Source: Deltaproteobacteria bacterium (GTDB lineage: Bacteria; Desulfobacterota; Desulfarculia; JACQYL01). Taken from it: a stretch of DNA of 41,943 bases. Location: positions 54,007-95,949 of the forward strand of contig JACQYL010000048.1 in the NCBI GenBank assembly GCA_016208165.1, in the 5' to 3' direction. Below, piece by piece: positions 699 to 40,484 of this stretch. The number at the start of each line of letters is the position of its first letter. Within the stretch, counting starts at the first letter, position 1. Below the pieces are notes generated by a model. It worked only from the letters and a program-made list of their open reading frames with translations, did no database searches and was not told the origin of the DNA. Position numbers and translations under genes: made by a program.

Positions 699-707
699 GC
701 AATCGTT

Positions 708-743: not shown

Positions 744-764
744 CTCCCTTCCCAAATCTCTTAA

Positions 765-797
765 GTCCGTTTTGGCCGCGTTGCGGCCAAAACGGAC
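765..797. repeat. Perfect inverted repeat, 15-bp arms
   Basis: Arms 765-779 and 783-797 are perfectly complementary with a 3-nt loop (GTT). The stem is GC-rich at its tip (GGCCGC) and contains TTTT/AAAA in the middle. It stands beside the hairpin at 708-743 in the metF/glutamate synthase gap, making a double stem-loop. A role in termination or mRNA stability is inferred. Confidence 0.7.
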
Positions 798-922
798 AAG
801 TGCACGTGCGAGCTTCCTATAGGGATAGAAGCCAAGGCAACCCCGACATCGAGGTTCCAAGGGGTTCTATAAGGCCATTCAATAAAACCCCGGTATCGGC
901 GATATCAGCAGGAAGTTCGCGT

Positions 923-4512: not shown

Positions 4513-4637
4513 CACTTACCTTCGATTGAGGAAAATGTGAGCCGACGTATCGGTTCGGTTCGATGATGTTGTCCCGCCGCGGATGCGCCGGGACCGGTCC
4601 ATTCATATGCATTGGAAGATTCAAGCAAAATTGGAAT

Positions 4638-5144: not shown

Positions 5145-5203
5145 GATGTATCTCCCTTGTGATGCAGGTTTTTCATTTACAATCAGTATGTTTGGTTGCC
5201 GAA

Positions 5204-5232
5204 AAAATATCAGACGGGACGGGCAATGTCAA
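5204..5232 (-). promoter_or_regulatory. Sigma-70-like promoter for rubrerythrin
   Basis: On the minus strand a consensus -35 box TTGACA (5232-5227) is separated by 17 bp from TATTTT (5209-5204). It lies 60-88 bp upstream of the rbr ATG and points toward it. No clear PerR operator was seen. Confidence 0.65.
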
Positions 5233-5343
5233 CGCAGCCCCGCGCCGTGAGCAGATGGACCGATGCGTCTCTATTGAAAGAACCGCAGCTCTTTTTCGAA
5301 ATCGGGAGGATATGGGAAATTTCTCGAAAATACGTTCATCGGC

Positions 5344-7566
5344 TTATCCCAGCCCCCCTCTGACAGGGCCGGCCTTTCCAATACCGAGCAGATTGAACAG
5401 GATCTGGAATCGCGATTCATTCTCCTGTTTTTCAAACGAAACCTCGACCCCCCAGCACTGGAACATCATTTGAACTCCCACTCCTGTTTCAATCGTCCTG
5501 TTTCCCTCGAGGGACCGCTTGTTACTTCCAATCAGGAAAAACCATTCCGTGACTTTCAGGCGAACGTAGGCGTTCAATTGCTCGATACGGTCACGTGTGA
5601 ACCGATAATCCAGGCCGAAGGCGTCTCCCCTGTTATCCTTTGCCAAGAGATACGTGTTGAAGGTCCGAAACTCGCTGTCATAGGGATCTAATATCGCGTC
5701 CGAGAGAAGTTGGACGGTGCTCAACGGATACAGTTCCAGCTCGAAATGCAATCCTGAAAACGGATCTCCTTCGTCCTCTTCAAAGTCCGGTTCCTCCCGG
5801 TCTGACTCCGTGATATTGTAGTCCTGGCTGATTTTCAGACGGCAGATGTCCCTGTAAGTCCTCGATCCTTTGGGCAGGTCAAACCGGGCCGTCCAAACGT
5901 TGAGGAAGCCGTACGAAACCCGATTCGAGTTACCGATGTCATCCTCCAAATCGAAATGCGGCGTCTCACCGGATTCGTCCACCGTTCGGTAATCGTATCG
6001 AAGGAAGGGTTTCACCTCGTGTCGAATCCGGCTCATCCCCCAGAAGTCCGCATGGTACACCCTCGAAACAATCGTATTGGCCTCGGCTCCCAGAGTGGCG
6101 TCCCAGCGGGAAGCCGCACCCTCGTCCGCGTCGGCTTCAAGGCGTTCCACGTAATACAGGGTCTCGTTGAAACCGGCGAACGGGGTGAGCACAATGCCGC
6201 CGGGTATCTCATAGGGCAGGGAAACAGCGGGAGCGGCGTTCAGTCGGTGCCCTTTGTTTCCGTCTTCGCTCCAGAAATAGGTGTGCCGGGCATCCAGCCC
6301 GCCGAAAAGAGAAGAATCGAACAGGGGCAGATCCGGTACGGAGAGCATAAGGGCAGGCAACTGTTGGGGCGTGGCGTCCACCGGCTCGCGCACCAGATCC
6401 TGGTAATAAGTCAGGCTCCCGTTCATGCCGACGTTTGTCCAATTTTTCGTCGCCGCGGCTACGGACTTTCTGTGCAAAGCCGTGTCATCTCCCAGATTTC
6501 TATGGAAATCGTTTGAAAAGGCCCGGTCCGAATCCCGGAATCCGCTGAAAGAAGAATTGAATTCTCTCAGAAAATCCTGGTCGCTGGCCAGATCCAGATC
6601 CATTTTCACTTGAACGTCGTAGGGCAGATTCTGGTCGTGTTTGGAGCGTAACCACCATCGGCTTTCATTCGTGCGGGAGAACTGGTCGTCGTAATAGTTG
6701 TCATCTTCCAGTTGATCGTGCAAATAATCGAACTGCACCATTCCCCGGGACTCGTCCGTCTCGAGATAGCGGAACTCGAGACCTTGTTTCAGACCGCGTT
6801 CGTACATGTAGTGCTCGTAGAACGTAGCGTCCGTCTGGTCCGAGATTGCCCAGAAAAAAGGAAGGTCGATTCCCGCACCGCTCCTGCTCGAGTACTCCGG
6901 CCGGGGTATGAGAAAGCCCGTCTGACGGGTGACCTTGGCCGGAAAAATGAAATAAGGCGAATAGAGTACCGGTATATCCTTGATTTCGAAGACCAGGGAC
7001 CGGATCGTAGCGTAACCGTCCACGGTCAAATCGATTTCCCCGCCGCGGAACCGCCAGGCGGGGCAATCTCCGTCGCAGGTAGTGAGAGAGCTGTCAGTAA
7101 GATGGAAACGATTTTCGTCGGTTTTTTCGATGGTTTCCCCTGTGAGGTAGTAATGGCCTTCCCGAATGAAAAGTTTGCCGGCCCGGATCTTGCCCACACG
7201 CCGGCCCAGATCGACCCAGAGATGCTCCCCTCCGGCCATACCCGCGGGAGTCACGATTACAACGTTCCCCTCTGCTTCCGCTTGTTGAAGTTTCTGGTAA
7301 TAAACGACCCGGTCCGCGGTCAGTTCCCGGTCTTCCTGATAGATCCTGACATGGCCCGTTACAGTGATGAGGCCCTGGTCCTGGTCGTATTCGGCTGTGT
7401 CCCCTTTCACGAACCAGGGGCCTTCCCCGAGATCGAAACTGATGTCGGAGAGGGGCTTCACCGGCGCGGCCCACGCCGCCGGAAAGAATAGAAAACAGCA
7501 TGCGGCAACGAAGAAAGCCGGCTTTAGGAATCGCACATTGAACATCTTCGGCCGTGTCGGGCGCAT
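5344..7566 (-). CDS. lptD: LPS-assembly outer-membrane protein LptD
   Basis: About 740 residues. LptD is the outer-membrane beta-barrel that, with LptE, inserts lipopolysaccharide into the outer leaflet. A signal peptide is visible (FFVAACCFLFFPAAWA, cleavage after AWA). It is followed by the periplasmic OstA/LptA-like jellyroll (GDTAEYDQDQGLITVTGHV, LTADRVVYYQ, GVVIVTP-like strands). The long C-terminal region is rich in alternating aromatic/acidic strands as in the barrel (for example YSPYFIFPAKVTRQTGFLIP, a typical LptD segment). The start is uncertain: ATG 7566 and ATG 7545 are both possible, neither with a good ribosome binding site; a TTG further up (7635) is unlikely. Confidence 0.9.
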   Translation of the reverse strand: MRPTRPKMFNVRFLKPAFFVAACCFLFFPAAWAAPVKPLSDISFDLGEGPWFVKGDTAEYDQDQGLITVTGHVRIYQEDRELTADRVVYYQKLQQAEAEGNVVIVTPAGMAGGEHLWVDLGRRVGKIRAGKLFIREGHYYLTGETIEKTDENRFHLTDSSLTTCDGDCPAWRFRGGEIDLTVDGYATIRSLVFEIKDIPVLYSPYFIFPAKVTRQTGFLIPRPEYSSRSGAGIDLPFFWAISDQTDATFYEHYMYERGLKQGLEFRYLETDESRGMVQFDYLHDQLEDDNYYDDQFSRTNESRWWLRSKHDQNLPYDVQVKMDLDLASDQDFLREFNSSFSGFRDSDRAFSNDFHRNLGDDTALHRKSVAAATKNWTNVGMNGSLTYYQDLVREPVDATPQQLPALMLSVPDLPLFDSSLFGGLDARHTYFWSEDGNKGHRLNAAPAVSLPYEIPGGIVLTPFAGFNETLYYVERLEADADEGAASRWDATLGAEANTIVSRVYHADFWGMSRIRHEVKPFLRYDYRTVDESGETPHFDLEDDIGNSNRVSYGFLNVWTARFDLPKGSRTYRDICRLKISQDYNITESDREEPDFEEDEGDPFSGLHFELELYPLSTVQLLSDAILDPYDSEFRTFNTYLLAKDNRGDAFGLDYRFTRDRIEQLNAYVRLKVTEWFFLIGSNKRSLEGNRTIETGVGVQMMFQCWGVEVSFEKQENESRFQILFNLLGIGKAGPVRGGLG

Positions 7567-7896
7567 AATGGAACCGTCATGGGTGCTGAGGAAGTGAGTA
7601 CGCAGGAAACTAGCACACGGTTGGAAACGCGGCAACCGCGAATTGATCCAAATCGTTAACGGATAAAACAGCGTGCGCGCCGATGACTTGTCAGGAAACG
7701 AGAATTCTTTCAGCGAATGGGAGGCCGAGGAAAAGACCGGTCCGGAAAGGCTCGAGGTTATTTCCGGGGAGTATACGGATTCCGCTCCTTACTCTTGCGC
7801 ATGGCCGCGTATATCGGCGAAGTGTATCCGTTCGCGGGATATCAGGAGAGACCCTTAGGAATCCGCTTATGATTGTGTCCTATGGCGGTATCCTGG
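7567..7896. other. Intergenic region upstream of lptD
   Basis: No gene was accepted here. It should contain the lptD promoter, but no good -35/-10 pair was found. A small perfect palindrome (CGCGG-CAA-CCGCG) lies near 7628-7640. Short plus-strand ORFs at 7673-7919 lack ribosome binding sites and protein-like composition. Confidence 0.4.
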
Positions 7897-7936
7897 GGGG
7901 TGGCGCGGACAACAAGTAGTCCGGGCCACCCATCCA
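7897..7936. repeat. Dispersed palindromic intergenic repeat, family A copy 1
   Basis: An imperfect palindrome bounded by GGGTGGC and GCCACCC. Positions 7906-7936 recur as an exact 31-nt inverted copy at 40144-40174. Positions 7897-7913 recur directly (17 of 17 nt) at 40457-40473. This is a REP-like element in a gene-free gap. Confidence 0.75.
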
Positions 7937-7984
7937 CCGTCGACGTCCGAGCGAGTTGACCGCACGGGAGCCGTAGATACAAGT

Positions 7985-8015
7985 TTGGGTCAGCGAGCAC
8001 AGCGGGCGCAACCCA
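7985..8015. repeat. Dispersed palindromic intergenic repeat, family B copy 1
   Basis: An imperfect inverted repeat with outer arms TTGGGT and AACCCA and a GCGAGC-type core. It resembles the two palindromes at 40309-40342 and 40354-40380. It sits just downstream of the last gene of the glycan operon and may act as a transcript end or mRNA stabiliser. Confidence 0.6.
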
Positions 8016-8030
8016 GCATATCCGGCTTGC

Positions 8031-8912
8031 TCACGAGGACGTGTTCTCTTTGTACACCTCTTTCAAATCCTGGTATTCCTTCTGAGGTAATCCGTATTTG
8101 AACTTGTATCGTTCGCTGCCCTCGAAGCACATGAGCGACGCATCGGCCCTGACGCTCAAGGGCATGCGGTCCGTGGCCGCCGCATACACACCGCAGTTGA
8201 AGGCCCATTTGGCCGTCTTCTCCGGAGAGGCTCCGGGCTTCAGCGGATGGCTGTACGGATGCTCGATATGCAGCATGCGGAAACGATCGGGAGGCGCCAG
8301 GACCCGCTGCCACCCGAGGTCCCCAGCCTTGACCACCACCCAGGAATCCATGGAACCCGCGGTGAGCAGGAACGGCGGCGTTGGAATCAGGTGCTTGCGG
8401 CCATCGGTGGCGCGCAAGGCGAAGAGATCCAGGGCGGTCCATTCCTCGGGCCGGGACTCGGAAACGGCCCGCTGGAAATCCTCGACCGTGGCGAGCCCTT
8501 TGTGAAACGTCCAGTTGTGACGGGGCAGGCTGTACAAGGTGTCCCGTTCGATGTACTGCTGCAGCCAGGAGCAGATGCCGGGCCCCAGAACGATATCGCC
8601 GTTTATGTACACAAAGATCTCGGTGTCGCAGTCCATGAGCACGGTTTCGAACATCAGCTTGAAGCTGTGAAGCGGTCCCGGAAACAGGTAGTGCCGGTAC
8701 CACGGAATCACCACGCAATCATACCCGTGTCTGGAAGCGTATTCCGCGGTCTCCACCTCCGAAGGCCAGCAGATGAATTTGACCTTGATTCCGTCGGTTT
8801 GTTGCCAGTTCAGTCCCTGCAGCACGGTCTCGTTCCGTTCGATCCACTCGCCCTTGAAGGTCCTGAACGCCACGTACACCGTGATGTCACGTATTCCGGG
8901 TTTGACTTCCAT
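8031..8912 (-). CDS. Putative glycosyltransferase (GT-A-like), last gene of glycan operon
   Basis: A 293-residue protein without signal peptide. The N-terminus (ITVYVAFRTFKGEWIERN) begins like a nucleotide-sugar-binding fold. YINGDIVLGPG (residues 102-112) resembles the acidic metal-binding motif of GT-A transferases, and ALRATDGRKHLIPTPPF with SMDSWVV follows. I do not recognise a defined family, so donor and acceptor are unknown. An upstream-extended frame would run into the dehydrogenase gene. ATG 8912 is preferred because GGAG (in the last codons of the preceding gene) precedes it and only 2 bp separate the genes, indicating coupling. Confidence 0.6.
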   Translation of the reverse strand: MEVKPGIRDITVYVAFRTFKGEWIERNETVLQGLNWQQTDGIKVKFICWPSEVETAEYASRHGYDCVVIPWYRHYLFPGPLHSFKLMFETVLMDCDTEIFVYINGDIVLGPGICSWLQQYIERDTLYSLPRHNWTFHKGLATVEDFQRAVSESRPEEWTALDLFALRATDGRKHLIPTPPFLLTAGSMDSWVVVKAGDLGWQRVLAPPDRFRMLHIEHPYSHPLKPGASPEKTAKWAFNCGVYAAATDRMPLSVRADASLMCFEGSERYKFKYGLPQKEYQDLKEVYKENTSS

Positions 8913-8914
8913 GC

Positions 8915-10159
8915 TTACTCCATGAACCTCAGCACCACCGTGTTTTCGGACAGGTTCCGCCGCCAGGACTCGTCCTGAAACTCGGGCCAGGGGGTGAGAA
9001 TCGCCACGACATCGGCGTCCCGGACGCATTCGTCCAGGCTTCCACAGACTTTCCAGTCTCCCGTCGCGCGGGCCATGGGATCGTAAACCGCCAGCTCGAG
9101 TTCCGGATGGTCCGCCGATAGTTTTCGGGCTACATCCAACGCCTGGGAGCATTCCACCAGGGGAGTGTGCGGTTTGTACGCCAGACCCAGCAGAGCGACT
9201 CGAGGCCCGTTGCGCCGGGCGGCGTCCCGAATTCTCGCGGTTACACGCTGAACCTGGCTGTCATTGATCTCCAACACGGCTCGTTGGAGCCCCGTATATC
9301 CGCGGACCTGTTCCGCGAAGCGGATAAACGCCTGATTGTCTCTCGGAAAGCACGGTCCGCCGAAGCCCAGCCCGGGTCGGATGTACTTACTCCCTATGCG
9401 GCTGTCGCGCCCCAGAATGGTCATGATGGCCCTGGGGTCGGCCTGCGGGAGGTTTTCACACAGGGCGCCTATCTGATTGGCGAAACTGATCTTCATGGTG
9501 CAGAAGCAGTTGATCGCCAGCTTGGCGATTTCCGCGTTGAGCACGCCCGTCCTCGCCGCATAGGGACGATGCTCGCACACCCGATCGTAAACGGCTTGCA
9601 GAGCATCCCCGGTCTCCGGGTCGGATTCGCCGATCAGCAAGAGATCCGGATTCAGGAAATCCGAAATTACGCTGCCGATGGCGACGAATTCCGGGTTGTA
9701 GGCGTATCCGAGATCCTTCCCCACCTTCTTGCCGGTCTCGCGTTCGATCAATGGGATAAACCGATCCTGGCCGGATCCCGGCATGACCGTGCTGACCACG
9801 TTCACTACAAAACGCGTTTTCAGATCTTTTAAAGCCGGCGCCATGCCTGACAGCACCGTCAGGACAGCTTCGTTCGAGAAAGAGCCGTCGGACAGGGAAG
9901 CGGTGGGCACCACGATAAAGGCCATATGACTCGCCCGGATCGCTTCCCCGAGATCCGTTGAAAAGCACAGGTTTCCCCTGACCTCGTCCAACAATTCGGA
10001 AAGCCCTGTCTCGGGAAAGGGGGCCTTGCCTTTCTCGAGTTCGGCCACGTAGGATTCCCGGATGTCCACACCGATGACCGGGTATCCTCCTCGAGCCAGG
10101 CACGCGGCCGTGCAGAGACCCAATTTCCCGAGTCCCACAACGGAAATCGCCTCAATCAT
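8915..10159 (-). CDS. UDP-glucose/GDP-mannose dehydrogenase family protein
   Basis: A 414-residue nucleotide-sugar 6-dehydrogenase that oxidises an NDP-hexose to the uronic acid with 2 NAD+. Evidence: N-terminal Rossmann motif SVVGLGKLGLCTAA, the central family segment AYNPEF, LAINCFCTMKISFANQIG, and the catalytic cysteine in GFGGPCFPRDNQAF. The C-terminal substrate-binding domain begins at about VALLGLAYKPHTP. Substrate (UDP-Glc, UDP-GlcNAc, UDP-ManNAc) cannot be told from sequence alone. ATG 10159 has GGAG at 8 nt; an ATG two codons upstream is too close to it. It overlaps the end of the GT2 gene by 8 bp. Confidence 0.9.
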   Translation of the reverse strand: MIEAISVVGLGKLGLCTAACLARGGYPVIGVDIRESYVAELEKGKAPFPETGLSELLDEVRGNLCFSTDLGEAIRASHMAFIVVPTASLSDGSFSNEAVLTVLSGMAPALKDLKTRFVVNVVSTVMPGSGQDRFIPLIERETGKKVGKDLGYAYNPEFVAIGSVISDFLNPDLLLIGESDPETGDALQAVYDRVCEHRPYAARTGVLNAEIAKLAINCFCTMKISFANQIGALCENLPQADPRAIMTILGRDSRIGSKYIRPGLGFGGPCFPRDNQAFIRFAEQVRGYTGLQRAVLEINDSQVQRVTARIRDAARRNGPRVALLGLAYKPHTPLVECSQALDVARKLSADHPELELAVYDPMARATGDWKVCGSLDECVRDADVVAILTPWPEFQDESWRRNLSENTVVLRFME

Positions 10160-11021
10160 GTTCATCTCTCCGGATTTCCCGCAGGAAACGTCTAGCTCTC
10201 CGGGCGCACCGGATGCTCTCCCGCATCAAGTTCTCGTAACCGCGGTTTCGCCATGCAGCCGGTTCCGCGGGATTGTCCGGATCGTGTTTGCGGACGCGGT
10301 ACAGCACCCTGGGCACATGCTTGAATCGGCATCCGGCCAGAGCGAAGCGGAAGAACATGTCATAGTCGTTGGCGTTCCGGTAGCCGGGGTCGTAGTATCC
10401 GACCTTTTCATGCAACGACCTCCGATAGAGTTTGCACGCGCCCAAGTGGAACCAGTCCGCCAGGCAGGTGCGAAACGTGTACTCGGGCTTTTCGAGGCGC
10501 TGCAGGATGCGGCCTCCATTATCCACCACGAACATGTCCGCATAGACGAAATCCGCTTCCCCCGTTTCGAGGACTTGCACCATTTCGCTCAGAGCGGTGG
10601 GCAGGAACGCATCGTCCGCCACCAGGTATGTGCAATAAGCGCCCGTGGCCCTCGTGAAACCCTCGTTGTAGGATCGGGTGGCGCCGATGTTTTCGTCGCT
10701 TTCTAAAACCACCACGCTGCGGCCGGCCGGATATCTCTTCCCACAGGAGCGTATCAGGCGCTCCTCGCCGTCCGAATCGTCCATTCTATCCAGATACGAG
10801 ACCTCGTCCTGCTCGATACCTCGGAGGTAGTCTCGCATGATCCGGTCGGTTCCATCCGTCGAGCCGTGATTGCAGACAATCACTTCGATATTCGGGTAGT
10901 CCTGGAACAGAACGCTGTCCAACGCCTCGGGCAGGGTCTGTGCCTGGTTGAACGTCGGCACGACGACGCTCACCAGAGGTTGTTCCGCTGCTTTTTCGGG
11001 AGACCACTCCATCCATCGCAT
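10152..11021 (-). CDS. Glycosyltransferase family 2 protein
   Basis: A 289-residue GT2 (GT-A fold) enzyme transferring a sugar from an NDP donor in cell-envelope glycan assembly. It shows SVVVPTFNQAQTLPEALDSVLFQDYPNIEVIV at the start (residues about 18-50), the STDGT donor-binding segment, ENIGATRSYNEGF and VADDAFLPTALSEM (metal-binding acidic motif). The C-terminal region GYYDPGYRNANDYDMFFR is typical of GT2 acceptor sites. No membrane segment is visible. Start may be ATG 11021 or ATG 11012; AGG is better spaced from the latter. It lies 7 bp after the radical SAM gene. Confidence 0.88.
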   Translation of the reverse strand: MRWMEWSPEKAAEQPLVSVVVPTFNQAQTLPEALDSVLFQDYPNIEVIVCNHGSTDGTDRIMRDYLRGIEQDEVSYLDRMDDSDGEERLIRSCGKRYPAGRSVVVLESDENIGATRSYNEGFTRATGAYCTYLVADDAFLPTALSEMVQVLETGEADFVYADMFVVDNGGRILQRLEKPEYTFRTCLADWFHLGACKLYRRSLHEKVGYYDPGYRNANDYDMFFRFALAGCRFKHVPRVLYRVRKHDPDNPAEPAAWRNRGYENLMRESIRCARRARRFLREIRRDEHD

Positions 11022-11028
11022 CCTGCTT

Positions 11029-12183
11029 TCAGATAAACCGGTAGGTCATGGAATCCCCCTGGATCACATGCTCGAAGATCTGGTTGTGGGGCTGATACGT
11101 ACACCTAGGGCATTCCTTCAGGTTCAGGGAATCGAATATGGCCCAGTGCGCTTCGGATCCCCAGATTCGTTCCACTTGAGCAAAATCCGTAAATCCCTCG
11201 CTGAATTCGAGTCGGCCGTCCCCACGGCGATCGCAGCACAACCCCACGTTGAAGTCGCCGCGCCCGGCTTCCACGGGAGGCATGAACACGGCCGTCATAA
11301 AGACGGCGTGGCACCTGTGGAACCGGTTGGCTCGGTTCAACAGGGAATCGAACTTATGCGTGACTCCATAGACGCCGAAGGTTTCGTCCTCGAGACTCCG
11401 CGCCTCGGAGATCTGCCGCGCGAGTTCATCTCGCACCTCGGGGCCGAACAACCTCCCCCTGTTTCCGGGCAGCCGGTCCCAGGGTATCCCGCCGGGCCTG
11501 AGATGAAAATTCCGGCAACCGAGTTCTTTGGCTTTACGAACGGCAGGCAAAATGTCCCGGGCATTCCCGTTCCACAAGAGATATTTGTAAGTCACGCCGT
11601 ATCCCGGCCGTTCCGTTCCCAGGCGACATCCATTCTGTTTGACGGCCTCGTTGAGCAGACGAATGTTTTCGGTCACCCGGCCGAATCGGTCTTTTCCCTT
11701 GAGTTGCAGATAGAGATCTTCGGAACCCGCGTCAACCGACACACCCACCCATGTGCATAGAGAGAGCGCTTCCACATGCTCGTGGATCCGGGTGCCGTTG
11801 GTCACAACGCCCACCTCGATGTTCCTGCTTGTGCAAGCCTCGATGAAATCCCCGATATAAGGGTGCAGGAGGGGTTCCCCGCCTCCGGCAATGCACACGG
11901 ATTCGACTCCCCGCGGCCACTCGGGACTTCCCCGCCATCGTGAGAGACCCTCCGCCAGCTCTAGGAGGGCACTCCTGTTCATGGCGCGATTCCTGCGGTC
12001 CAAAATGTACCCGGCGTTGCACCACGGGCAAGCAAGGTTGCAGGCGTTGATCGGATCCACCGTGACCAGCACGGGCTGCGGCGCCGGTTTTCCCCGCTCG
12101 ATCAGCCGCCAGCGATACACGTGCGCGAGCAGTTTGTAGCTGTTGAAAGGGTTCCATCTCCTGGAACCGGACCATTCTTCCAC
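11029..12183 (-). CDS. Radical SAM protein with SPASM-like C-terminal cysteines
   Basis: A 384-residue protein. The radical SAM 4Fe-4S motif is CNLACPWC (Cys48, Cys52, Cys55), followed by the GGGEP motif (AGGGEPLLHP) that contacts S-adenosylmethionine and VVTNGTRI. Late cysteines (CHAVFM, GLCCDRRGD, CPRC) suggest auxiliary Fe-S clusters of the SPASM/twitch type. Substrate is unknown; within this operon a sugar or glycan-carrier modification is a fair inference. The start is GTG at 12183 with AAGGA just upstream; no in-frame ATG fits better. Confidence 0.82.
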   Translation of the reverse strand: MEEWSGSRRWNPFNSYKLLAHVYRWRLIERGKPAPQPVLVTVDPINACNLACPWCNAGYILDRRNRAMNRSALLELAEGLSRWRGSPEWPRGVESVCIAGGGEPLLHPYIGDFIEACTSRNIEVGVVTNGTRIHEHVEALSLCTWVGVSVDAGSEDLYLQLKGKDRFGRVTENIRLLNEAVKQNGCRLGTERPGYGVTYKYLLWNGNARDILPAVRKAKELGCRNFHLRPGGIPWDRLPGNRGRLFGPEVRDELARQISEARSLEDETFGVYGVTHKFDSLLNRANRFHRCHAVFMTAVFMPPVEAGRGDFNVGLCCDRRGDGRLEFSEGFTDFAQVERIWGSEAHWAIFDSLNLKECPRCTYQPHNQIFEHVIQGDSMTYRFI

Positions 12184-12233
12184 TTTATTCCTTACCGCGA
12201 ACAGTCCTCGGAAGTATTCCGAATGTCCGCCGT

Positions 12234-13190
12234 CTACAGAGATTCATATGCGCCCGTAAGCACTTCGAGAACCCGGCCTTCATTCCAGACCTGCTCCATG
12301 AAAGCCCTGCTCTCCCTGCCGATGGCATCCCGCTTCCCGGAATCGTTAACCAGTTCGTTCAGTCTTTGCTCGAGTTCCCCGGGATTTCCCGCCGGGACCC
12401 AGGGAAGGCTCTGCCTGCCGGTAAAGCGACGGATCTGTTCCACATTCCATTGGTCCAGGCCGGCGATGACGGGCTTCCCCTGACTGAGCGATTCCAGGGA
12501 CGAAATTCCGAACCAACCGCGCATATGGTCGAACACCACATGGCAGCTGCGTTTCAGCCGCAGACAACGACGATGCGGCATCCGTTCGATCACCAGGAGG
12601 GATACTCGGGGATTCCGGTCCTTCACGCGCGACATCGCCTCCACAAACTAACGGGTGTTCTTGTGATACTTTCGCGTAGGCGCCTGGCAGACCCGGATTT
12701 CGTCCTGAGGCAAGCTGTTTTCGAACCTCGGCAACAGGGCCGCGTCGTTCAGAGGCGCCAGATTAGGAACCCATACGGCGTTTTCCGCCACTTTGAGCAG
12801 ATCCGGCGTGGCTACGATCACCTTCCTGCCCAGACGCCGGTATTTTTCATTGAATGCATCGGCATTCAGAATGTAGTCGGGGTGGCCGTGATGATGGTGC
12901 AGGATGCGTTTCCCGCGAATGTAATCCCGAACCACCAATGGGCCCAGATGGGCGTTCTCGTCGCTGAGCATATGAAAATGGAAAACATCGGCCTCGATCA
13001 TCAGTTGTTCGAGTTCCCCGTAATCGTCGTCGTGGATGTCGGGCAGATGTAGGTCCGTCTCGTACTCGAAACCGTATTTTTCCGCCGTGGAAACCAGGCG
13101 GCACCGGTGGGAGGTGTACCGGTTTATGGCGTTGGTAAAGGCGATTCCCATGCCTGCGGGGTCATTGGCGGTGATCATGAGGATGTTCAA
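12234..13190 (-). pseudogene. GT-B-type glycosyltransferase interrupted by one in-frame TAG
   Basis: Two pieces in the same reading frame are separated only by a TAG codon at 12650-12648. The N-terminal piece (to KYHKNTR) has NILMITANDPAGMG, typical of a GT4-like N-terminal domain, and HHHHGHPDYI. The C-terminal piece has FGISSLESLSQGKPVIAGLD, the donor-binding EX7E-type region. FVEAM directly after the stop continues the usual linker (KxT..FVEA). The start is TTG 13190 with GGAGG about 8 nt upstream; the frame is open further up but lacks a start with a binding site. A C, G or A to T change would explain the stop. It may be a pseudogene, a sequencing error, or less likely read-through. Confidence 0.8.
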
Positions 13191-13306
13191 AAGAGACGCC
13201 TCCCATGCGAGCAATCAACGTTTTTCCGATCACCGGGATGCTTACCGTTCACCCGATTTACGGTTCCTGCGCCTGTGTCGGCGAACGAATTCAGAGCCGT
13301 TCCCGT

Positions 13307-15175
13307 TTAGAGATCGTAGCCGGACAGACGGGTCAGGGCTTCGATGAATCCACGTCCTCCGTGCAGGTGCCCCAGCCATATCTCCGGCACCCAGGTGTCT
13401 CTGTAGTCTGAAAAAAGGGGCATCACGGCATTGAAATCGATGTCCCCATCCCCGATCTGAATCCCTTCGCCGTCCAGTCCGCGTGCGTCCGCGAAATGGA
13501 TGTGACGAATGTGCTCCCGAACGGCCTCGATGAACTCGCAGAGATCGACGCCTCCGGCGTTGCAGTAGAGTGAAGCGTGGGACAGATCGAAACAGAAGCC
13601 CGAGTCGGTCCGGCGACAAAAGTCGACGATGTCCTCCGGTCCCATGAAGTAGTGTCCCCTCCATTGGCCTCCGAAGTACCAGGGAAAAGGAGGGAGGTTC
13701 TCCATCAACAGCTCCACCCCATCGCTGCGAAGCTCTTCCCATGACCTGAGGAGGTTTTCCCGGAGCCGCTGCGGGACCGAATCTTCCTTGAGGCTCATGG
13801 CTCCCGGATGCACCACCAGTTTGGGCGATCCTTTGAATCGTGGGCTCCATTTCCGGGCCAGGACAATGGCCTTGCGCACCTGCTCGACGGACCGGCCGCG
13901 GGTGGCTTCATCCTCGGCGCACAGGTCAACCAATTGATCGCCCATGTACTCCGGTGCGTGGACGACGAGATGCTGCGGAAAAACCCGTTCGGAAATCTCC
14001 GCTGTCTCGAGATCATTCTCCGTCAGGCGAATTTCAAGCGTTTTAGGATTCAATCGGATGAATTCCCCCGCGTCACTGAACCGGGCGATCAGACCCCACA
14101 GGCTTTCAAACCCGTTTTCCGTGGACCGCGGGCCGTGGTCCGCGTCATCGCTCTCCGTGAAGTAATCGTCCGGTTCGTAATCACGCGTCGCCCGGAGTCC
14201 CACGATTTGGTGGAGCCGATGGGGCGGTACGCCCCGGGCGGGCCCCTTCGCACACACCATGGACTTGCGGATCGGGGTCCCCCGCGGAATGAACCGGGCC
14301 GCCACCAGGCTTTTGCCGAACAGTTCCCGATTCAGAATTTCGCCTTGGGAGAGATGGTCCGTTTCTTCTCCCATGGCGTCCTCGGCTACCCTGATTTCCT
14401 CGACCAGCCGGCGAAATTCATGAGGTTCCAAGCTGGCGCGATGGTCGGGACCGGGCATGTTCCGGTTCAGGGTCAGATGTTTTTCTATGATACAAGCGCC
14501 CAAGGCCACGGCGATTAAAGGGATCGTAATTCCGACGTCGTGGCTGGAATAGCCCACCGGACGCCCGAAACGTCTTAGCGAAACCATTCGCTTCAGCTGC
14601 GCCTCCCTGGGGTGTACCGGATATACGCTGCGGCAGTGCAGCAGGGCGAAAGGGATATCGTGCGCATCGAGCACGGCCACGGCTTCCTCGACCTCTCGAC
14701 CGGTAGCCATTCCCGTCGAGACAATCATGGGCTTTCGAACACGGGCCACCGCATCTAACAGGGGGATGTTGGTGAGATCCGCCGATGCGATCTTGTGAGC
14801 CGGTAAATCGAGGCTTTCGAGAAAACGAACGCTCGCAGCGTCAAACGGTGTGCACAAAAAGTCCAGTCCCAGATGGTCCGCTTCCTGTTTTAGGCCGACG
14901 AAGGTCTCTTCCTCCAGCTCGGTCTGCCGCAAAACGGGGATGATATACTGAATATGTTGTTCGAACCGCCAGGTGCATTCCAGAACGTCCCTCCGGTAGA
15001 GATCGGATAAATTCCGTTTCTGGAATTTAACCGCATTGGCGCCCGCTTCGGCGGCCGCCTGCATCAACCGAAGCGCCGCATCCGGATCTCCGTTGTGGTT
15101 GATGCCGATTTCGGCGATGACATAGACAGGTTGCCCTCCGCCTATGGAGGTAGTTCCCAGGACCATCGTTCTCAT
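13307..15175 (-). CDS. NeuB-type nonulosonate synthase fused to SAF domain and sugar-phosphate isomerase-like TIM barrel
   Basis: A 622-residue three-part protein. Residues 15-265 form the NeuB domain that condenses phosphoenolpyruvate with an N-acyl sugar to a sialic-acid-like nonulosonate: IAEIGINHNGD, AVKFQKRN, FLCTPFD, KIASADLTN, STGMAT, GYSSHD and IIEKHLTLNR are all family motifs. Residues 286-345 match the SAF/antifreeze-like domain (FIPRGTPIRKSMVCAKGPARG). Residues 355-620 resemble an AP-endonuclease-2/sugar isomerase TIM barrel (HLVVHAPEY, LVVHPG, MENLPPF, FCFDLSHASLY, HIHFADARG). Plain NeuB proteins are about 350 residues, so the tail is an added module that may make or epimerise the substrate. 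ATG 15175 has GAGG just upstream. It lies 24 bp after the regulator. Confidence 0.9.
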   Translation of the reverse strand: MRTMVLGTTSIGGGQPVYVIAEIGINHNGDPDAALRLMQAAAEAGANAVKFQKRNLSDLYRRDVLECTWRFEQHIQYIIPVLRQTELEEETFVGLKQEADHLGLDFLCTPFDAASVRFLESLDLPAHKIASADLTNIPLLDAVARVRKPMIVSTGMATGREVEEAVAVLDAHDIPFALLHCRSVYPVHPREAQLKRMVSLRRFGRPVGYSSHDVGITIPLIAVALGACIIEKHLTLNRNMPGPDHRASLEPHEFRRLVEEIRVAEDAMGEETDHLSQGEILNRELFGKSLVAARFIPRGTPIRKSMVCAKGPARGVPPHRLHQIVGLRATRDYEPDDYFTESDDADHGPRSTENGFESLWGLIARFSDAGEFIRLNPKTLEIRLTENDLETAEISERVFPQHLVVHAPEYMGDQLVDLCAEDEATRGRSVEQVRKAIVLARKWSPRFKGSPKLVVHPGAMSLKEDSVPQRLRENLLRSWEELRSDGVELLMENLPPFPWYFGGQWRGHYFMGPEDIVDFCRRTDSGFCFDLSHASLYCNAGGVDLCEFIEAVREHIRHIHFADARGLDGEGIQIGDGDIDFNAVMPLFSDYRDTWVPEIWLGHLHGGRGFIEALTRLSGYDL

Positions 15176-21985: not shown

Positions 21986-23173
21986 TCACGACGGCGTTCG
22001 TTCTCCAGGAACGATGAGGCCATTTAACGCCTCCCGGACGAGCTGTTCCGGCGTCTTTTTAGCCTCGAATTCAGCCCAGCCGACGGAAACTCGAGGCGTG
22101 GCTCCCTCCGCCACGTCCGCCAGCTTGGAGGAGGCGATTTCACTGATTCGGCGGGCCAGGACTTCTGCGGCCCACTTTGGAGTACCGGGCAGAATCATGG
22201 CGAACGTTCTATCATCGTAGCGTGCGATCACGTCAGAGAGCCGAACCTGTTTTCTCAGGACATACGCCAGTTCGAAATGCCATTCTTCCACCTTCGTATC
22301 CTTTCGAGCGCTTTGGACTTGAACCAGCACAACACTGAACGGCTGTCCGTATCGCTCGCCACGGGCACACTCCTCGGCGAGGCGAATGTCCAGCTCGACC
22401 CGGGAGAGCAGGCCCGTATGAGGACACCGTATGCTTTGGACGCCGGAGAGAAAATTAAGGAACGCTTCGTTTGTCACTCTCTCGAACTCGCCGGAGGGAG
22501 TGTCCACCACAATTTTTCCCTCGTCGAGCATGGCGATCCGGTCGGTGATCGTGAAAATATCCGGTATTTCGTGACTTACGATGACGGCGGCAAATCCGTG
22601 ATGACGTTGAGAAGCCGCGATGAGTTCGTGAACGGAGTTCTTGCGCAAAGGATCCAGTCCGGTGGTAGGTTCGTCGAAAAGAATGATGTCCGGATTATTC
22701 ACAAGAGCCCGAGCCAACCCAACTCGTTTTCGCATGCCGCCGCTGAGTTGTGGCGGGAATTTTTCTCTGGCCGCTATCAATCCCACGTGATCCAGAAGAT
22801 CTTTGACTTTTTCCTGGATTTGGGTTTCCGAAAGCTTGGTCGTTTCCCTCAGAGGCAGCGCCACATTCTCGAACACGGTCAGACTGTCGAAAAGCGCTGC
22901 ATTCTGGAAGAGAAAACCCATCTTGGAACGGACGTGTTCGAGCTCACCCCGAGAAGCCTTGCCAACATCCACTCCGTTTACCAGCACCTGTCCGGCGTCG
23001 GCTCGCATCAGTCCTATAATGTGTTTCAGGATGAGGCTCTTGCCCACCCCGCTTTTCCCGATAATACCAACGGTCTCCTTCTGGTAAACATTAAGGGAAA
23101 CTCCTTGGAGCACGGGTGTGTCCTTAAAACTCTTGTAAATATTGTCAACAGCGATGATCGGTGATCGTTCCAT
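21986..23173 (-). CDS. MlaF-like ABC ATPase fused to a degenerate GGDEF domain
   Basis: 395 residues. Residues 1-245 are an ABC ATPase of the Mce/Mla lipid transport (Ttg2A) group: Walker A GKSGVGKS (39-46), Q-loop FLFQNAALFDSLTV, signature LSGGMRKR (143-150), Walker B IILFDEP (163-169) and H-loop SHEI (His201). Residues about 250-390 align with a GGDEF domain (CPHTGLLSR, RYGQPFSVVLVQV, SDVIARY, FAMILPG, RVSVGWAEF), but the signature reads DDRTF (320-324), so cyclase activity is unlikely. The RxxD I-site (RLSD, 311-314) is kept at the canonical distance. No mlaE or mlaD gene is adjacent. The start lacks a strong binding site. Confidence 0.85.
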   Translation of the reverse strand: MERSPIIAVDNIYKSFKDTPVLQGVSLNVYQKETVGIIGKSGVGKSLILKHIIGLMRADAGQVLVNGVDVGKASRGELEHVRSKMGFLFQNAALFDSLTVFENVALPLRETTKLSETQIQEKVKDLLDHVGLIAAREKFPPQLSGGMRKRVGLARALVNNPDIILFDEPTTGLDPLRKNSVHELIAASQRHHGFAAVIVSHEIPDIFTITDRIAMLDEGKIVVDTPSGEFERVTNEAFLNFLSGVQSIRCPHTGLLSRVELDIRLAEECARGERYGQPFSVVLVQVQSARKDTKVEEWHFELAYVLRKQVRLSDVIARYDDRTFAMILPGTPKWAAEVLARRISEIASSKLADVAEGATPRVSVGWAEFEAKKTPEQLVREALNGLIVPGERTPS

Positions 23174-26309: not shown

Positions 26310-29300
26310 ATGACTCTTCGCACGAAGACTTCTCTTCTGCTCGCCTGCACCGTCGTTTTGGCCGTCACCTTGACAGGATATTTCTACCTGCAACTCCTGC
26401 AAAGCACGATCAGGAAATCGATCTTTGACAAGGCGGAAGACATCTCCGGCGCCACGGCTTCGGCGATAGCCGTATTCCTCGATGACACACTCAGAGACGC
26501 CCAGGTGGCAGCCGCTACGATCCCATCACGTGTTCTGGAAGAATGGGATGTGGCTGAAATTGAGCGGCGGCTGAGTTCCATGATGAAGCTTTACCCTAAA
26601 TTCGAAAACGGGCTGTTTGTTCTTGATTCCAAGGGAACTCTTCAATTGGATTATCCCCCACATCATGGAGTGAGAGGCAGGTCGTTTGAATTCAGAGAAT
26701 ACTTCAAACGAACGATGAAAGAAGGCAAAGGGATTATCGGGATCCCTTACCGGTCGGCCAGAACCGGTGAGCCCGTTCTTACATTTACTGCGCCACTGAG
26801 AAGAACATCCGGAGAAATCATTGGATTGTTGGGCTGCTCGGTAAAACTTCTTTCGGATCAGGCGCTCGGCGGCATAGGCAAAAAAGGTTTTGGCGAATCC
26901 GGGTATGTATATGTTTTCGATACCAGCAGGTTGAATATCCTTCACACCGATAAGGATCGGGTGCTCGAAAGAGACGTACCCCCCGGAGCAAATAACCTTT
27001 TCGACGCGGCCGTGGAGGGATTTGAAGGAACGGGTGAGACCGTCGACTCCCAAGGGATCCACATGCTGGTTTCTCTCAAGCGCGTACCGGAGAGCAACTG
27101 GATCGTCGGAGTCCAGCAAACCGCTGAAGAAGCATTCGCTCCCATTCGAGAGGCCCGTCTGCGAATTGCACTTTTTCTCGCCATCGGTGTTCTGGTCGCT
27201 TTCTTGGCTGGAACGGTGGTGATTCGGAGGATCACCTATCCGCTGTTCCAGCTCCGGCGAGCGGCCATGTCCATCAGCGCGGAGTCCCTCGAGACGCCCA
27301 AGCCGGTTGGAGATCGGGACCTTAACTTGTGGGAGAAACTGGACAGTATTCGGAGCGGAGATGAAATCGGTGAATTGGCTCAAACCCTGAAGGAGATGTA
27401 TGAAAAACTGGGTCAAACCTTGCTGTCGTTGAAACGGTCGGCCAAAGACTGGGAACGTACGTTTGACTCCGTGCCGGAAGCGATTTTTATTCTGGATAAG
27501 CAAAATAACGTCCGGCGCCTGAATCGAGCTGCTGCGAACCTGCTCCGGATGGATTTCAGGGAGGCAATTGGACGGCACTGCTACAAGCTGTTCAGAAAAG
27601 ATGACAGTGTTCCGGATTATTGCCCGGATGAAGGGGAATTGAAAGATAAGAAGCCCGCTGTGTTGGAAGTCGATGAGCCCTCTCTGGGTGGAATCTTCAG
27701 AATGATCATAACACCCCTTACGGACGATGCAGGCAACAGCGTTGGGGCGGTGCTCGTTCTCAGCAATATTACAGCGGCCAAGCGGGCGGAAGAGGCATTA
27801 CGTGAAAGTGAACTCCGGTATCGTTCGCTCTTCCTAGAGGCTCAGGATGCACTTTTTCTCATTAAGAACAAGGCCTACATAGACTGTAATCCCGCTGCGG
27901 AAAGGTTGTTTCGTTGTTCCCGGGAAGAGATGCTCGGGAGCAGTCCGGTCAAATTTTTTCCAGAGTTTCAGTCCGATGGATCATCCTCTTCCGATCTGCT
28001 CAACACGATGGACCTGGCCGACTTCTCAGGGCATCCGCTTCGTTTCGAGTGGATGCACAAAGCCAAAGGCGGCCATCTTTTCGACGCGGAAGTCTCGATC
28101 AGCAGGGTGTACATCCGGGGCGAAGCCACTTTTCTGATGCTGGTCCGTGACATCACCGAACAGAAACACGTTCGGGAGATCCTCATGAAAGAACAGAAAC
28201 GGCTCGCCTCCATCCTGGATGGTATCCCGTTACCGACCATCATGATCGACAGGAATCACCGAGTACTATTCTGGAACCGGTCTTCGGAACTGACGAGCGG
28301 AGTTCCCAGAGAGAAAGTGTTGAATCAGCCGCTGGACCTTGGCCATTTATACAACGATCAGAAACGTCCGATCCTGGCGAATCTGATTCTCGACCTGACG
28401 GATGAAGAGCTGTTGGCACGGTACGGTGAGAAGGGCCTTCGCAAGATTGAAGAATCCCCTGAAGCCTTCGGAACAGTGGACCGGATATGGACGAACGGAA
28501 AGGAGCGCGTGGTGGCCCTCATAGCCACAAGGCTGCGGGACGCCGGGGGTGAGGTGGTGGGCGCCATTCAGTGCGCGCAGGACATCACCGAGAGGGAGCA
28601 GCTGCAACAGAAGCTTCAGCAGGTCCAGAGAATCGAAGCGTTGGCCACGCTGGCTGGAGGAATAGCCCATGACTTTAATAACTTATTAATGGCGATCCAA
28701 GGGCATGTTTCTCTGATGCTCGTGGATACCTCATCGTCGGCCCGGTACGTCGAGAAGCTGAAAAGCATCAATCGGCTGGTCCGAAGCGGTGCGGAACTCA
28801 CTCGACAATTGTTGGGCTTCGCCCGAGCAGGAAAGTACGACGTCAGACCTCTCAGCATCAATGAACTCATTGAATATAGCTCCGATATGTTCGGCCGCAC
28901 AAGAAGGGAGATCGAGATACACAAGCAACTTGAACCGAATGCCTGGACCGTCGAGGCGGACCGAGGGCAGATCGAACAGGTGCTGCTGAACATCTATGTT
29001 AACGCTTGGCAAGCCATGCCTGATGGCGGGAAATTGCTCATAAGAACGGAATCGGTGACCGTGCACGCGGACACCGCACAACTTTGGGGACTCAGGCCCG
29101 GTCGGTATCTCAAGATCGTTATCGCGGATACTGGAATCGGGATGGATGAAGGTACGCTGAAAAGGATATTCGACCCGTTCTTCACCACCAAGGAGAGGGG
29201 CCGGGGGACCGGTCTCGGGCTTGCGTCCGCCTATGGTATCATCAAGAATCACGGCGGCTATATCGATGTTGCCAGTCAAAAGGGCAAGGGAAGCAGCTTT

Positions 29301-29750
29301 ACCATCTATTTACCTGCTTCAGGGAAGCCGGTTTCACTAGAAACCAAGGGGTCGGATGTGCCCCAGAAAGGCACGGAGACCATTCTCTTTGTAGACGATG
29401 AAATGGAGATTTTGGAGGTAGGAGAACAAATCCTACGGACTCTGGGGTACCGGCCTTTGGTCGCTCGCAACGGCGCCGAGGCTCTGGACATCTATCGCGA
29501 CAATATGAGCGGCATCGACCTGGTTATTCTGGACATGATTATGCCGGGGATGAGCGGCGGAGAGACGCATGATGCGCTCAAGAAAATGGATCCTCGAGTA
29601 AAGGTTTTGCTTTGCTCGGGTTACAGCCTCGATGGCCAGGCGAATGAGATACTCAAGCGAGGATGCGACGGGTTTCTTCAGAAACCTTTTGATATAACGA
29701 CACTTTCCATTAAACTGAGAGAAATATTGAGCGCGAAGACGGTAAGATGA
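26310..29750 (+). CDS. Hybrid sensor histidine kinase (dCache-HAMP-3xPAS-HisKA-HATPase-REC)
   Basis: 1146 residues. Membrane helices at about 8-28 and 286-306 enclose a periplasmic dCache-like sensor with GLFVLDSKGTLQLDYPPHHG and SGYVYVFDT. A HAMP region follows (about 307-375). Three PAS-like domains lie at about 380-495, 500-615 and 630-762, two ending in DIT-type motifs. The phosphoacceptor is His787 in LAGGIAHDFNNLL. The ATPase domain has N894/N898, DTGIGM (940-945) and GRGTGLGLA. A receiver domain (1023-1142) has DD1029-1030, Asp1075 in LVILDMIMPG and Lys1125. It probably signals in a phosphorelay; no separate response regulator is adjacent. ATG 26310 has a GGGG stretch upstream. Confidence 0.92.
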   Translation: MTLRTKTSLLLACTVVLAVTLTGYFYLQLLQSTIRKSIFDKAEDISGATASAIAVFLDDTLRDAQVAAATIPSRVLEEWDVAEIERRLSSMMKLYPKFENGLFVLDSKGTLQLDYPPHHGVRGRSFEFREYFKRTMKEGKGIIGIPYRSARTGEPVLTFTAPLRRTSGEIIGLLGCSVKLLSDQALGGIGKKGFGESGYVYVFDTSRLNILHTDKDRVLERDVPPGANNLFDAAVEGFEGTGETVDSQGIHMLVSLKRVPESNWIVGVQQTAEEAFAPIREARLRIALFLAIGVLVAFLAGTVVIRRITYPLFQLRRAAMSISAESLETPKPVGDRDLNLWEKLDSIRSGDEIGELAQTLKEMYEKLGQTLLSLKRSAKDWERTFDSVPEAIFILDKQNNVRRLNRAAANLLRMDFREAIGRHCYKLFRKDDSVPDYCPDEGELKDKKPAVLEVDEPSLGGIFRMIITPLTDDAGNSVGAVLVLSNITAAKRAEEALRESELRYRSLFLEAQDALFLIKNKAYIDCNPAAERLFRCSREEMLGSSPVKFFPEFQSDGSSSSDLLNTMDLADFSGHPLRFEWMHKAKGGHLFDAEVSISRVYIRGEATFLMLVRDITEQKHVREILMKEQKRLASILDGIPLPTIMIDRNHRVLFWNRSSELTSGVPREKVLNQPLDLGHLYNDQKRPILANLILDLTDEELLARYGEKGLRKIEESPEAFGTVDRIWTNGKERVVALIATRLRDAGGEVVGAIQCAQDITEREQLQQKLQQVQRIEALATLAGGIAHDFNNLLMAIQGHVSLMLVDTSSSARYVEKLKSINRLVRSGAELTRQLLGFARAGKYDVRPLSINELIEYSSDMFGRTRREIEIHKQLEPNAWTVEADRGQIEQVLLNIYVNAWQAMPDGGKLLIRTESVTVHADTAQLWGLRPGRYLKIVIADTGIGMDEGTLKRIFDPFFTTKERGRGTGLGLASAYGIIKNHGGYIDVASQKGKGSSFTIYLPASGKPVSLETKGSDVPQKGTETILFVDDEMEILEVGEQILRTLGYRPLVARNGAEALDIYRDNMSGIDLVILDMIMPGMSGGETHDALKKMDPRVKVLLCSGYSLDGQANEILKRGCDGFLQKPFDITTLSIKLREILSAKTVR

Positions 29751-38110: not shown

Positions 38111-40108
38111 ATGCCTGAGACCGAAGAGAAGCTGGAGAGCAAGAAAAAAACCATACATCGAAATCCCGAGAACTCCGGTATCAAGGCTGGAAGTTTTCAT
38201 TTCCCATGGCGTGGCGCCAAAAGCAGGCTTTGGACGAATTTTGTACTGGTGTCTGTAAGCATCTTTGTCGTACTCAGCCTGATGTATCTGGTGGCGCGTC
38301 ACTTGTTGTTCAGCGAACTAAGCCAGCGCGCGGTTGGCGTGGCCCTTGCCACGGCCTCCGGCGTAGACCTTGAAGATCTCGACCGGATCCGGACTGCGGA
38401 GGACATCGACAAGCCTGAATATGTCCGGGTCCAGTCCTTTTTGAAGCGCATTTCCGATTCCAATCAAGACGTGGTCTGCCTATGCATGATCCGTCCGGTT
38501 CCTACAAACGTGTCCGGACGGGTAAGGTACGTGTACGTTGCGGACGACAAGACGAAAGATCTCAACGGCAACGATCGCTTCGAGAGAGATGAGGTCAGAC
38601 ACCTTCCCGGAGCACTTTTCAACGATTCGAGTCACGGCAGTTTGAACAAGGCGAGGTACCATCCGGTTGCCGATACGAACTCGTATTTCCAGTCCTTGAG
38701 ACACGTTCAGATTTCGGCCTACTCTCCTATAAAGGACGCGCGCGGCGACACGGTTGCCGTCGTGAGCGTCGGCATTTCGTCGGATTCGGTCCGTAAGCGA
38801 CTGGCCCACTTCCAGATATCAACCCTCGCCGTCTGGGCGCTGCTCAGTGTGTTGGCGTTCTTTTTCTCAGGAATCACCCGAAAACGGTGGGTCGGTTATC
38901 TGTTTGTGTCGGCCATCATTCTGGTTCTCTTTACCTTCCTTTACATGGTCGCGAGAAGGGCGATAATCAGTGAAATCAGGTACCATGCCATGGGCGTGGC
39001 CATAGCCACGGCCGCCGGCATCGATCCGGAAGAAGTAAACGGCATACGGAAAGCCGAAGACGCGGGAAAGGCATCGTACTTTCGCATTCAAGCATTCATG
39101 CAGCGCATAGCGGATACGAATATGGACGTGCGCTACGTCTACATCATGCGAAAATCGACGAAAGCCGACGCGAAGGCCACGGACTATGAGTACGTAGTGG
39201 ACGAGGCCACTTTCGACCAGAACGGAAACGGCGCCATCGATCCCGAAGAGGTGGGGAATCCACCGGGCGCCTATTACGACGCATCATCCTTTCCTCAATT
39301 GTTGGCGGCCTGGTATCAGCCGGCCGCCGATTTGGACGTGACTCCGGACCCGCCCTATCCCGACCTCATGTCCGGCTACGCTCCGATCAAAGACAAGCAT
39401 GGCCACACCGTAGCCCTAGTGGGAGTAGATGTGATCGCGGAAGTGGTCGGCCGGAAGCTATTGGCGATTCGCACCGTCATCCTGATTGTGTACCTGACCC
39501 TGACCTTGCTTACCATCGCCGTTCTCCAATTGTATTTTCAGAAGCGAGCCTTGCTGGAAGAGCGTGATGAACTCATCTCGGAACTGGAGAAGAGCAGGGA
39601 ACGGTACAAACTGCTGAGCATTACCGATGAATTGACCAAACTGTACAATCAGAGACATTTCGGCGATCAGTTGACCGAAGAAACACATCGGGCCCTCCGA
39701 TATGGGCATCCGCTGTCCTTGCTCCTGATGGATATCGATGATTTCAAACTCTACAATGACACGCACGGGCATGCGGCAGGAGATATGGTTCTCGAAGAAC
39801 TTGGAAGGGTCATTAAACAAGAACTCCGAGCTTCGGATTCGGCCTATCGTTACGGAGGCGAGGAATTCATTATCCTGTTACCGGAAACCGATGCGGAACA
39901 GGCCGTTTCCGTTGCGGACCGGCTCAGAAAAGACTGGAGGGAAACCGCTCTCTCCCGGGAAGAGATCGATAACGCGGGACGCGTTACTCTGAGCATCGGC
40001 ATCGCGGCATACAACCCGGGAGAAGACCCGGCTGAATTCGTGAAGCGCGCGGACGGCAATATGTATACTGCTAAACGCCTGGGCAAGGACAGGATCGTAT
40101 TCGCTTAG
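38111..40108 (+). CDS. Membrane diguanylate cyclase with duplicated sensor modules
   Basis: 665 residues. It has two similar membrane-linked sensor modules: residues about 43-235 and 260-450. Each begins with a membrane helix, has a GVA(L/I)ATA segment, RIxAFLKRI/QAFMQRI-type helix, a DxNxN loop and a SAYSPIKD/SGYAPIKD strand pair. The loops DLNGNDRFERDE (150-161) and DQNGNGAIDPEE (369-380) look like EF-hand calcium loops. After a last helix (about 452-473) and coiled linker comes the GGDEF domain (505-660) with DELTKLYNQRHF, GGEEF (582-586) and an RxxD I-site at 573-576 (RASD), so c-di-GMP synthesis with product inhibition is expected. GGAAAG precedes the ATG. Confidence 0.9.
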   Translation: MPETEEKLESKKKTIHRNPENSGIKAGSFHFPWRGAKSRLWTNFVLVSVSIFVVLSLMYLVARHLLFSELSQRAVGVALATASGVDLEDLDRIRTAEDIDKPEYVRVQSFLKRISDSNQDVVCLCMIRPVPTNVSGRVRYVYVADDKTKDLNGNDRFERDEVRHLPGALFNDSSHGSLNKARYHPVADTNSYFQSLRHVQISAYSPIKDARGDTVAVVSVGISSDSVRKRLAHFQISTLAVWALLSVLAFFFSGITRKRWVGYLFVSAIILVLFTFLYMVARRAIISEIRYHAMGVAIATAAGIDPEEVNGIRKAEDAGKASYFRIQAFMQRIADTNMDVRYVYIMRKSTKADAKATDYEYVVDEATFDQNGNGAIDPEEVGNPPGAYYDASSFPQLLAAWYQPAADLDVTPDPPYPDLMSGYAPIKDKHGHTVALVGVDVIAEVVGRKLLAIRTVILIVYLTLTLLTIAVLQLYFQKRALLEERDELISELEKSRERYKLLSITDELTKLYNQRHFGDQLTEETHRALRYGHPLSLLLMDIDDFKLYNDTHGHAAGDMVLEELGRVIKQELRASDSAYRYGGEEFIILLPETDAEQAVSVADRLRKDWRETALSREEIDNAGRVTLSIGIAAYNPGEDPAEFVKRADGNMYTAKRLGKDRIVFA

Positions 40109-40174: not shown

Positions 40175-40308
40175 GGTCGGACGACAGGAGGTGACCGTAC
40201 GTCATAAATCGGAAGGTTGCATGGTTCGGACAACGAGCCGTCCCTCCGCCCGGAGTGGTTCAATGCCGGGGGAATTCAATCACCACCCGCGTCTGGATAT
40301 ATCGGTAG

Positions 40309-40342
40309 GTTGGGTTAGCGAGCGATGCGAGCGTAACCCAAC
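40309..40342. repeat. Dispersed palindromic repeat, family B copy 2
   Basis: Arms GTTGGGTTA and TAACCCAAC are perfectly complementary, enclosing a GCGAGC-type core. Similar to the element at 7985-8015. Confidence 0.75.
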
Positions 40343-40353
40343 GTATTGGATTT

Positions 40354-40380
40354 GTTGGGTTTCGCTGCGCTCAACCCAAC
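40354..40380. repeat. Dispersed palindromic repeat, family B copy 3
   Basis: Arms GTTGGGTT and AACCCAAC around a CGCTGCGCT core, 11 bp after the previous copy. Together they form a tandem pair. Confidence 0.75.
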
Positions 40381-40456
40381 CTTGTATATTGCAGCCATCG
40401 ATGATTGGATTCGATTCAGCCCGGATGTACGGAACCTGGGGACAGCGTTTCATTCA

Positions 40457-40484
40457 GGGGTGGCGCGGACAACTCGTTGTCCGC
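40457..40484. repeat. Dispersed palindromic repeat, family A copy 3
   Basis: The first 17 nt equal 7897-7913. Inside it GCGGACAAC and GTTGTCCGC (40465-40473, 40476-40484) form a perfect 9-bp hairpin with a 2-nt loop. Confidence 0.7.

Follow-up and report, generated by a model that had tools for sequence, protein, structure and literature searches.

A predicted membrane diguanylate cyclase with tandem single Cache modules, each carrying an EF-hand-type loop as a putative calcium site

The gene for a tandem-Cache diguanylate cyclase of 665 amino acids lies at positions 38111-40108 (+) of a 41,943-nucleotide stretch of DNA from a Deltaproteobacteria bacterium; the whole stretch is referred to here as the window. 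The open reading frame begins with an ATG at 38111 and comprises 665 codons, with a stop that ends at 40108. The sequence GGAAAG upstream of the start is a plausible ribosome site, and an artefact of frame or strand was ruled out, given that the minus strand over the gene is interrupted by stops. As predicted from its sequence, the product is a membrane diguanylate cyclase in which two tandem TM-sensor-TM modules are followed by an intact GGDEF domain. This description, proposed in an earlier note on the same DNA, holds in light of the GGDEF match (E 7e-46), an internal duplication and four hydrophobic segments.

Upstream of the cyclase gene lie hemC, a cobA-hemD fusion and folC. A surface-glycan-type gene set begins about 690 bp downstream, with a cytidylyltransferase, an FkbM methyltransferase, a DegT aminotransferase and a family 2 glycosyltransferase (GT2), and spans positions 107-14067 of genome contig L267, from the last gene of the window onwards. 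A role for the cyclase at the cell surface or in biofilms is compatible with this setting; the glycan neighbours themselves are not evidence for such a role. The gap downstream of the cyclase gene includes a palindrome-like repeat at 40300-40385, GGTTGGGTTAGCGAGCG ... CGCTGCGCTCAACCCAACC, which by eye resembles dispersed intergenic repeats, and the same region carries a 17-nt inverted repeat (40227-40243 and 40467-40483) that is 88% complementary, with its arms 223 nt apart. Elsewhere in the window, a NeuB-type gene is found at 13307-15175, and a hybrid histidine kinase at 26310-29750 (+) combines dCache_1, HAMP, several PAS, HisKA/HATPase and receiver domains. The gene at 21986-23173 (-) encodes an unusual fusion, in which the ATPase of an ABC transporter (PF00005, 121 bits) is followed by a GGDEF-like domain (42 bits) at the C-terminus; this domain has the degenerate active-site motif YDDRTF and is probably non-catalytic.

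The output domain of the cyclase occupies residues 504-660 (39620..40090) and matches GGDEF with 156.4 bits, above the Pfam cut-off of 23.8. The GG[DE]EF active site is intact, in the form GGEEF (residues 582-586; 39854..39868), and an RxxD I-site, RASD (residues 573-576; 39827..39838), stands five residues before it. Given a GGDEF domain with both motifs, the protein is expected to be an active, product-inhibited diguanylate cyclase. A linker helix at residues 478-503 (39542..39619), assigned from helix 188-233 of the module 2 model together with the sequence, connects the last transmembrane segment to the GGDEF domain and presumably has a coiled-coil role.

Hydropathy analysis places transmembrane segments on the plus strand at residues 39-70 (TM1; 38225..38320), 231-257 (TM2; 38801..38881), 258-287 (TM3; 38882..38971) and 449-477 (TM4; 39455..39541). 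The TM2 segment overlaps a short basic turn, ITRKRW, which lies between TM2 and TM3 and fits a cytoplasmic loop. Four hydrophobic segments with a basic turn between the middle two would place both sensors outside the cytoplasm. Alignment, phmmer and AlphaFold2 models delimit two TM-sCache-TM modules, module 1 at about residues 37-256 (38219..38878) and module 2 at about residues 257-490 (38879..39580). The modules are about 36% identical, and a phmmer comparison of module 1 against module 2 gives an E value of 6e-40. The local alignment score of the internal duplication is 355, compared to a mean of 31.8 (SD 4.8, maximum 51) over 500 shuffles. The earlier note had described the N-terminal 450 residues as duplicated, and the duplication itself is borne out, with its end moved from residue 450 to nearer residue 490.

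Structure prediction of the sensor region, which the earlier note had proposed as a check, was carried out for both modules with alignments of relatives from other genomes, and it returned a single Cache domain of the CitA type in each case, with Z scores of 13-14. The AlphaFold2 model of module 1 has a pLDDT of 91.4 and a pTM of 0.84, and superimposes on CitA (1p0z) with a Z score of 13.8 and an rmsd of 2.5 over 126 residues; for module 2 the values are 88.7, 0.81, 13.3 and 2.5 over 127 residues. Both models also match DcuS and WalK, with Z scores of 12-13, and the DctB sensor is likewise among the extracytoplasmic sensors that both match. Each has a PAS-like sheet between long N- and C-terminal helices, with one domain for each pair of transmembrane segments, which is the arrangement of an sCache domain. 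On these models, the confident prediction for each module is a single Cache domain of the CitA/DcuS/WalK type. The Pfam sCache_3 families (PF17202, PF17203) were not reached, with 26.6 bits against a cut-off of 28.8 for sCache_3_3 and 21.9 against 28.4 for sCache_3_2. The modules have a Cache fold, yet are outside any specific Pfam sCache family.

The two modules differ in how much of the Cache signature they retain. Module 1 has lost three near-invariant residues (Y to C at 125, G to S at 219 and D to G at 221), each kept by 25-26 of the 27 aligned modules, and despite these losses it keeps its metal-ligand positions. Module 2 keeps all of the signature residues that module 1 lost, and it retains the near-invariant Tyr, Arg and Asp of the family (module positions 67, 88, 91 and 184). 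Because the losses are confined to module 1, module 2, which adjoins the cyclase, is probably the main sensor and the ligand-responsive unit. Module 1 probably tunes or stabilises module 2, and its losses suggest a more limited role, perhaps one of metal binding only.

A 12-residue EF-hand-type loop is present in each module, DLNGNDRFERDE in module 1 (loop 1, residues 150-161; 38558..38593) and the canonical DQNGNGAIDPEE in module 2 (loop 2, residues 369-380; 39215..39250). The loops align with each other and have equivalent positions, in the stretch that separates strand 2 from the ligand-lid region, each beginning five residues past the invariant Asp that closes strand 2 (D108 in module numbering). 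Of the EF-hand ligand positions 1, 3, 5, 7 (through the backbone), 9 and 12, loop 2 fits all, and it fits every other position of an EF-hand loop as well, so that its earlier description as a near-canonical calcium loop is upheld. That each copy has such a loop is likewise correct; to call the first one diverged was an overstatement, given that loop 1 keeps all of the side-chain ligands (D1, N3, N5, E9 and E12) and is atypical only at position 6, with D for G, and at the hydrophobic position 8, with F. Two modules that otherwise differ so much share the same residue at each of the metal-ligand positions 1, 3, 5 and 12, with a conservative exchange at position 9.

Each model shows a brief turn of helix from loop position 10 onwards, as EF-hand loops do. 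The helix-loop-helix flanks of an EF-hand are absent from both, with a strand before the loop and a short helical turn after it. Because the entering element is a strand, the feature as modelled should be called an EF-hand-type loop rather than an EF-hand domain. The Pfam EF-hand models touch only loop 2, and only below the cut-off (EF-hand_5, 14.5 against 25.9 bits). The published Dx[DN]xDG motif is not matched either, since position 5 is N in both DQNGNG (module 2) and DLNGND (module 1), and the latter also lacks the G; both loops fit only the relaxed form Dx[DN]x[DN]. Confidence in the modelled loop of module 2 is low, at a pLDDT of about 61 over residues 111-120, and few rows of the alignment carry the loop.

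The same class and phylum yielded about 100 related Cache domains for comparison. Those relatives with outputs checked in Pfam are histidine kinases, and a plasmid search added a chemoreceptor. The relatives from plasmids, a Peptoclostridium MCP and a Deinococcus protein, are single-module proteins without the loop motif. Across the roughly 100 modules, most have a shorter segment at the loop site, such as VDSEPPESKDYSPPGQVYE or IIDNDYDEKTRVGLDT, and no motif. Only four histidine kinases, which belong to a different class of the phylum (L179, L221, L223 and L224), depart from this, with VDSETDYDRDGEYEGERESRTVPGEEYE and variants of it at the loop site. These kinases have a single extracytoplasmic Cache module, about 20% identical to module 2, with DYD[RG][DN]G and then a glutamate at the same site; L221 and L223 carry DxDxDG. 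The distal glutamate is at position 13 rather than 12 in all four, and the placement of the kinase motif differs by about one residue between alignments. The four kinases are, by their sequences, candidates for calcium sensing in their own right. Since some 100 relatives lack the motif and four distant kinases have it, the loop looks like a recurrent functional insertion rather than a product of chance, whether by shared ancestry or by independent gain.

Two complete copies of the module were found only in the window protein among the roughly 100 related domains. Searches of 63 genomes from the class and of about 395 sampled across the phylum, none of them from the same genus or family, gave no orthologue of the full-length protein. 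In the rest of its own genome, other proteins match the cyclase through GGDEF only. A search of the genome contigs with the whole protein was likewise dominated by GGDEF matches, and none spanned the tandem sensor.

The function proposed for the loops is to bind calcium outside the cytoplasm and thereby to tune the Cache lid and c-di-GMP synthesis, a putative scheme that we regard as about evenly balanced between right and wrong. Calcium at extracytoplasmic concentrations would occupy both loops, and the filled loops would order the pocket lid of the Cache domain. The succession of strands in the models makes it likely that the loops are on the lid side of that pocket. Calcium alone, or calcium together with an organic ligand bound in the pocket, would then alter the module; transmitted along the helix that leads into TM4 and on through the linker helix, this alteration would affect how the GGDEF domains dimerise and thereby the synthesis of c-di-GMP. 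Because the Cache fold implies a pocket for an organic ligand, the signal may not be calcium itself, which could act as a co-ligand or as a structural ion. A broader and more tentative proposal is that such sensors form a recurrent type: with an EF-hand-like calcium loop inserted in its lid, a single Cache domain would provide histidine kinases and a diguanylate cyclase with an extracytoplasmic calcium input. In the protein described here the arrangement would be duplicated and two-stage, with one copy that lacks some Cache signature residues and keeps the metal loop.

The protein could instead be an ordinary Cache sensor of an organic ligand, for instance a small carboxylate, in which the loops, permanently occupied in the periplasm, serve only for the stability of the fold and calcium is not a signal. 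The closest folds are those of the citrate and C4-dicarboxylate sensors CitA, DcuS and DctB, module 2 keeps the near-invariant Tyr, Arg and Asp of the family, and structural roles are listed for several Dx[DN]xDG sites (PMC3123361). However, nearly all of the relatives do without the loop, so the fold does not need it, and both copies, as well as distant kinases, have the loop at the same site. An organic-ligand sensor with structural loops is a serious possibility, rated somewhat below an even chance.

That the loops are D/N/G-rich surface segments that bind no metal, with a chance likeness to EF-hands, is improbable. The Pfam scores below cut-off and the missing Gly at position 6 of loop 1 would fit such a likeness. 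The EF-hand pattern was chosen after the sequence had been seen, and with it shuffles of the extracytoplasmic sequence contain the strict pattern in 0.16% of cases and two relaxed patterns in 0.03%. Chance is made unlikely by this rarity, by the shared site and preserved ligand positions in two divergent copies, and by the recurrence of the insertion at that site in the four kinases. As to the duplication itself, the genome assembly is fragmented, in 142 contigs, and a second tandem-module protein was not found among the relatives collected, which could point to an artefact of assembly. Copies that are only about 36% identical in protein and that share one open frame are too diverged for an assembler duplication, and this explanation can be dismissed with near certainty. 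The preferred reading is that of an extracytoplasmic metal input, which the earlier note had offered as calcium or another metal and which is best supported, by the Cache modules, the ligand-complete loops and the same-site insertion in distant kinases; calcium binding and its control of the cyclase are putative.

CitA and DcuS sense citrate or C4-dicarboxylates. Together with WalK they belong to the sCache_3 group, and they share their fold with both modules, whose Pfam matches to sCache_3 are weak. None of CitA, DcuS and WalK is known to have an EF-hand-type loop in this position, and few bacterial sensors are known to read extracellular calcium into c-di-GMP. Among open-licence papers, none was found that joins EF-hand-type loops with bacterial Cache sensors, or that treats an EF-hand, a periplasmic calcium-binding sensor domain and a diguanylate cyclase together; those in which "Cache domain" and "EF-hand" occur together are on animal calcium channels or on unrelated subjects.

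Among known systems a close parallel is CasA of Vibrio fischeri, a diguanylate cyclase that has a dCache-type sensor and is activated by calcium (PMC8576532). Given CasA, calcium-to-c-di-GMP signalling by a Cache cyclase is already known. Like the protein described here, CasA is a membrane diguanylate cyclase with an extracytoplasmic Cache-type sensor and a GGEEF active site, and acidic residues of its sensor matter for its calcium response (PMC8576532). CasA has one dCache_1 region between two transmembrane segments, whereas the present protein has two separate sCache modules, four transmembrane segments and an EF-hand-type loop in each module. The place of calcium binding in CasA was left open, and an EF-hand is nowhere mentioned in the text on it (PMC8576532). 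If the calcium reading is correct, a defined and mutable Cache calcium loop would provide a direct structural handle on the link from calcium to c-di-GMP.

Loops of the Dx[DN]xDG type bind calcium in many folds and are present in at least a dozen families, mostly extracytoplasmic, and proteins with them often differ from their kin by a longer loop that bears the motif (PMC3123361). The loops described here are similarly linear motifs, apparently gained as a longer loop between elements of secondary structure; they have N rather than D at position 5, and the text of that paper makes no mention of a sensor, a histidine kinase or GGDEF (PMC3123361). The sCache_heme domain (DUF3365/Tll0287; preprint PMC12889525) shows how a Cache domain can become a new type of sensor once a short motif has been inserted into it. 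In both cases a loop of the Cache scaffold has an inserted short motif for a cofactor, a CXXCH heme motif between strands 3 and 4 in sCache_heme and, in the present modules, a putative metal motif of Dx[DN]x[DN]G type that follows strand 2. If calcium is indeed bound, the present protein would be the second case, after sCache_heme, of a Cache sensor that gains a cofactor by insertion of a short motif.
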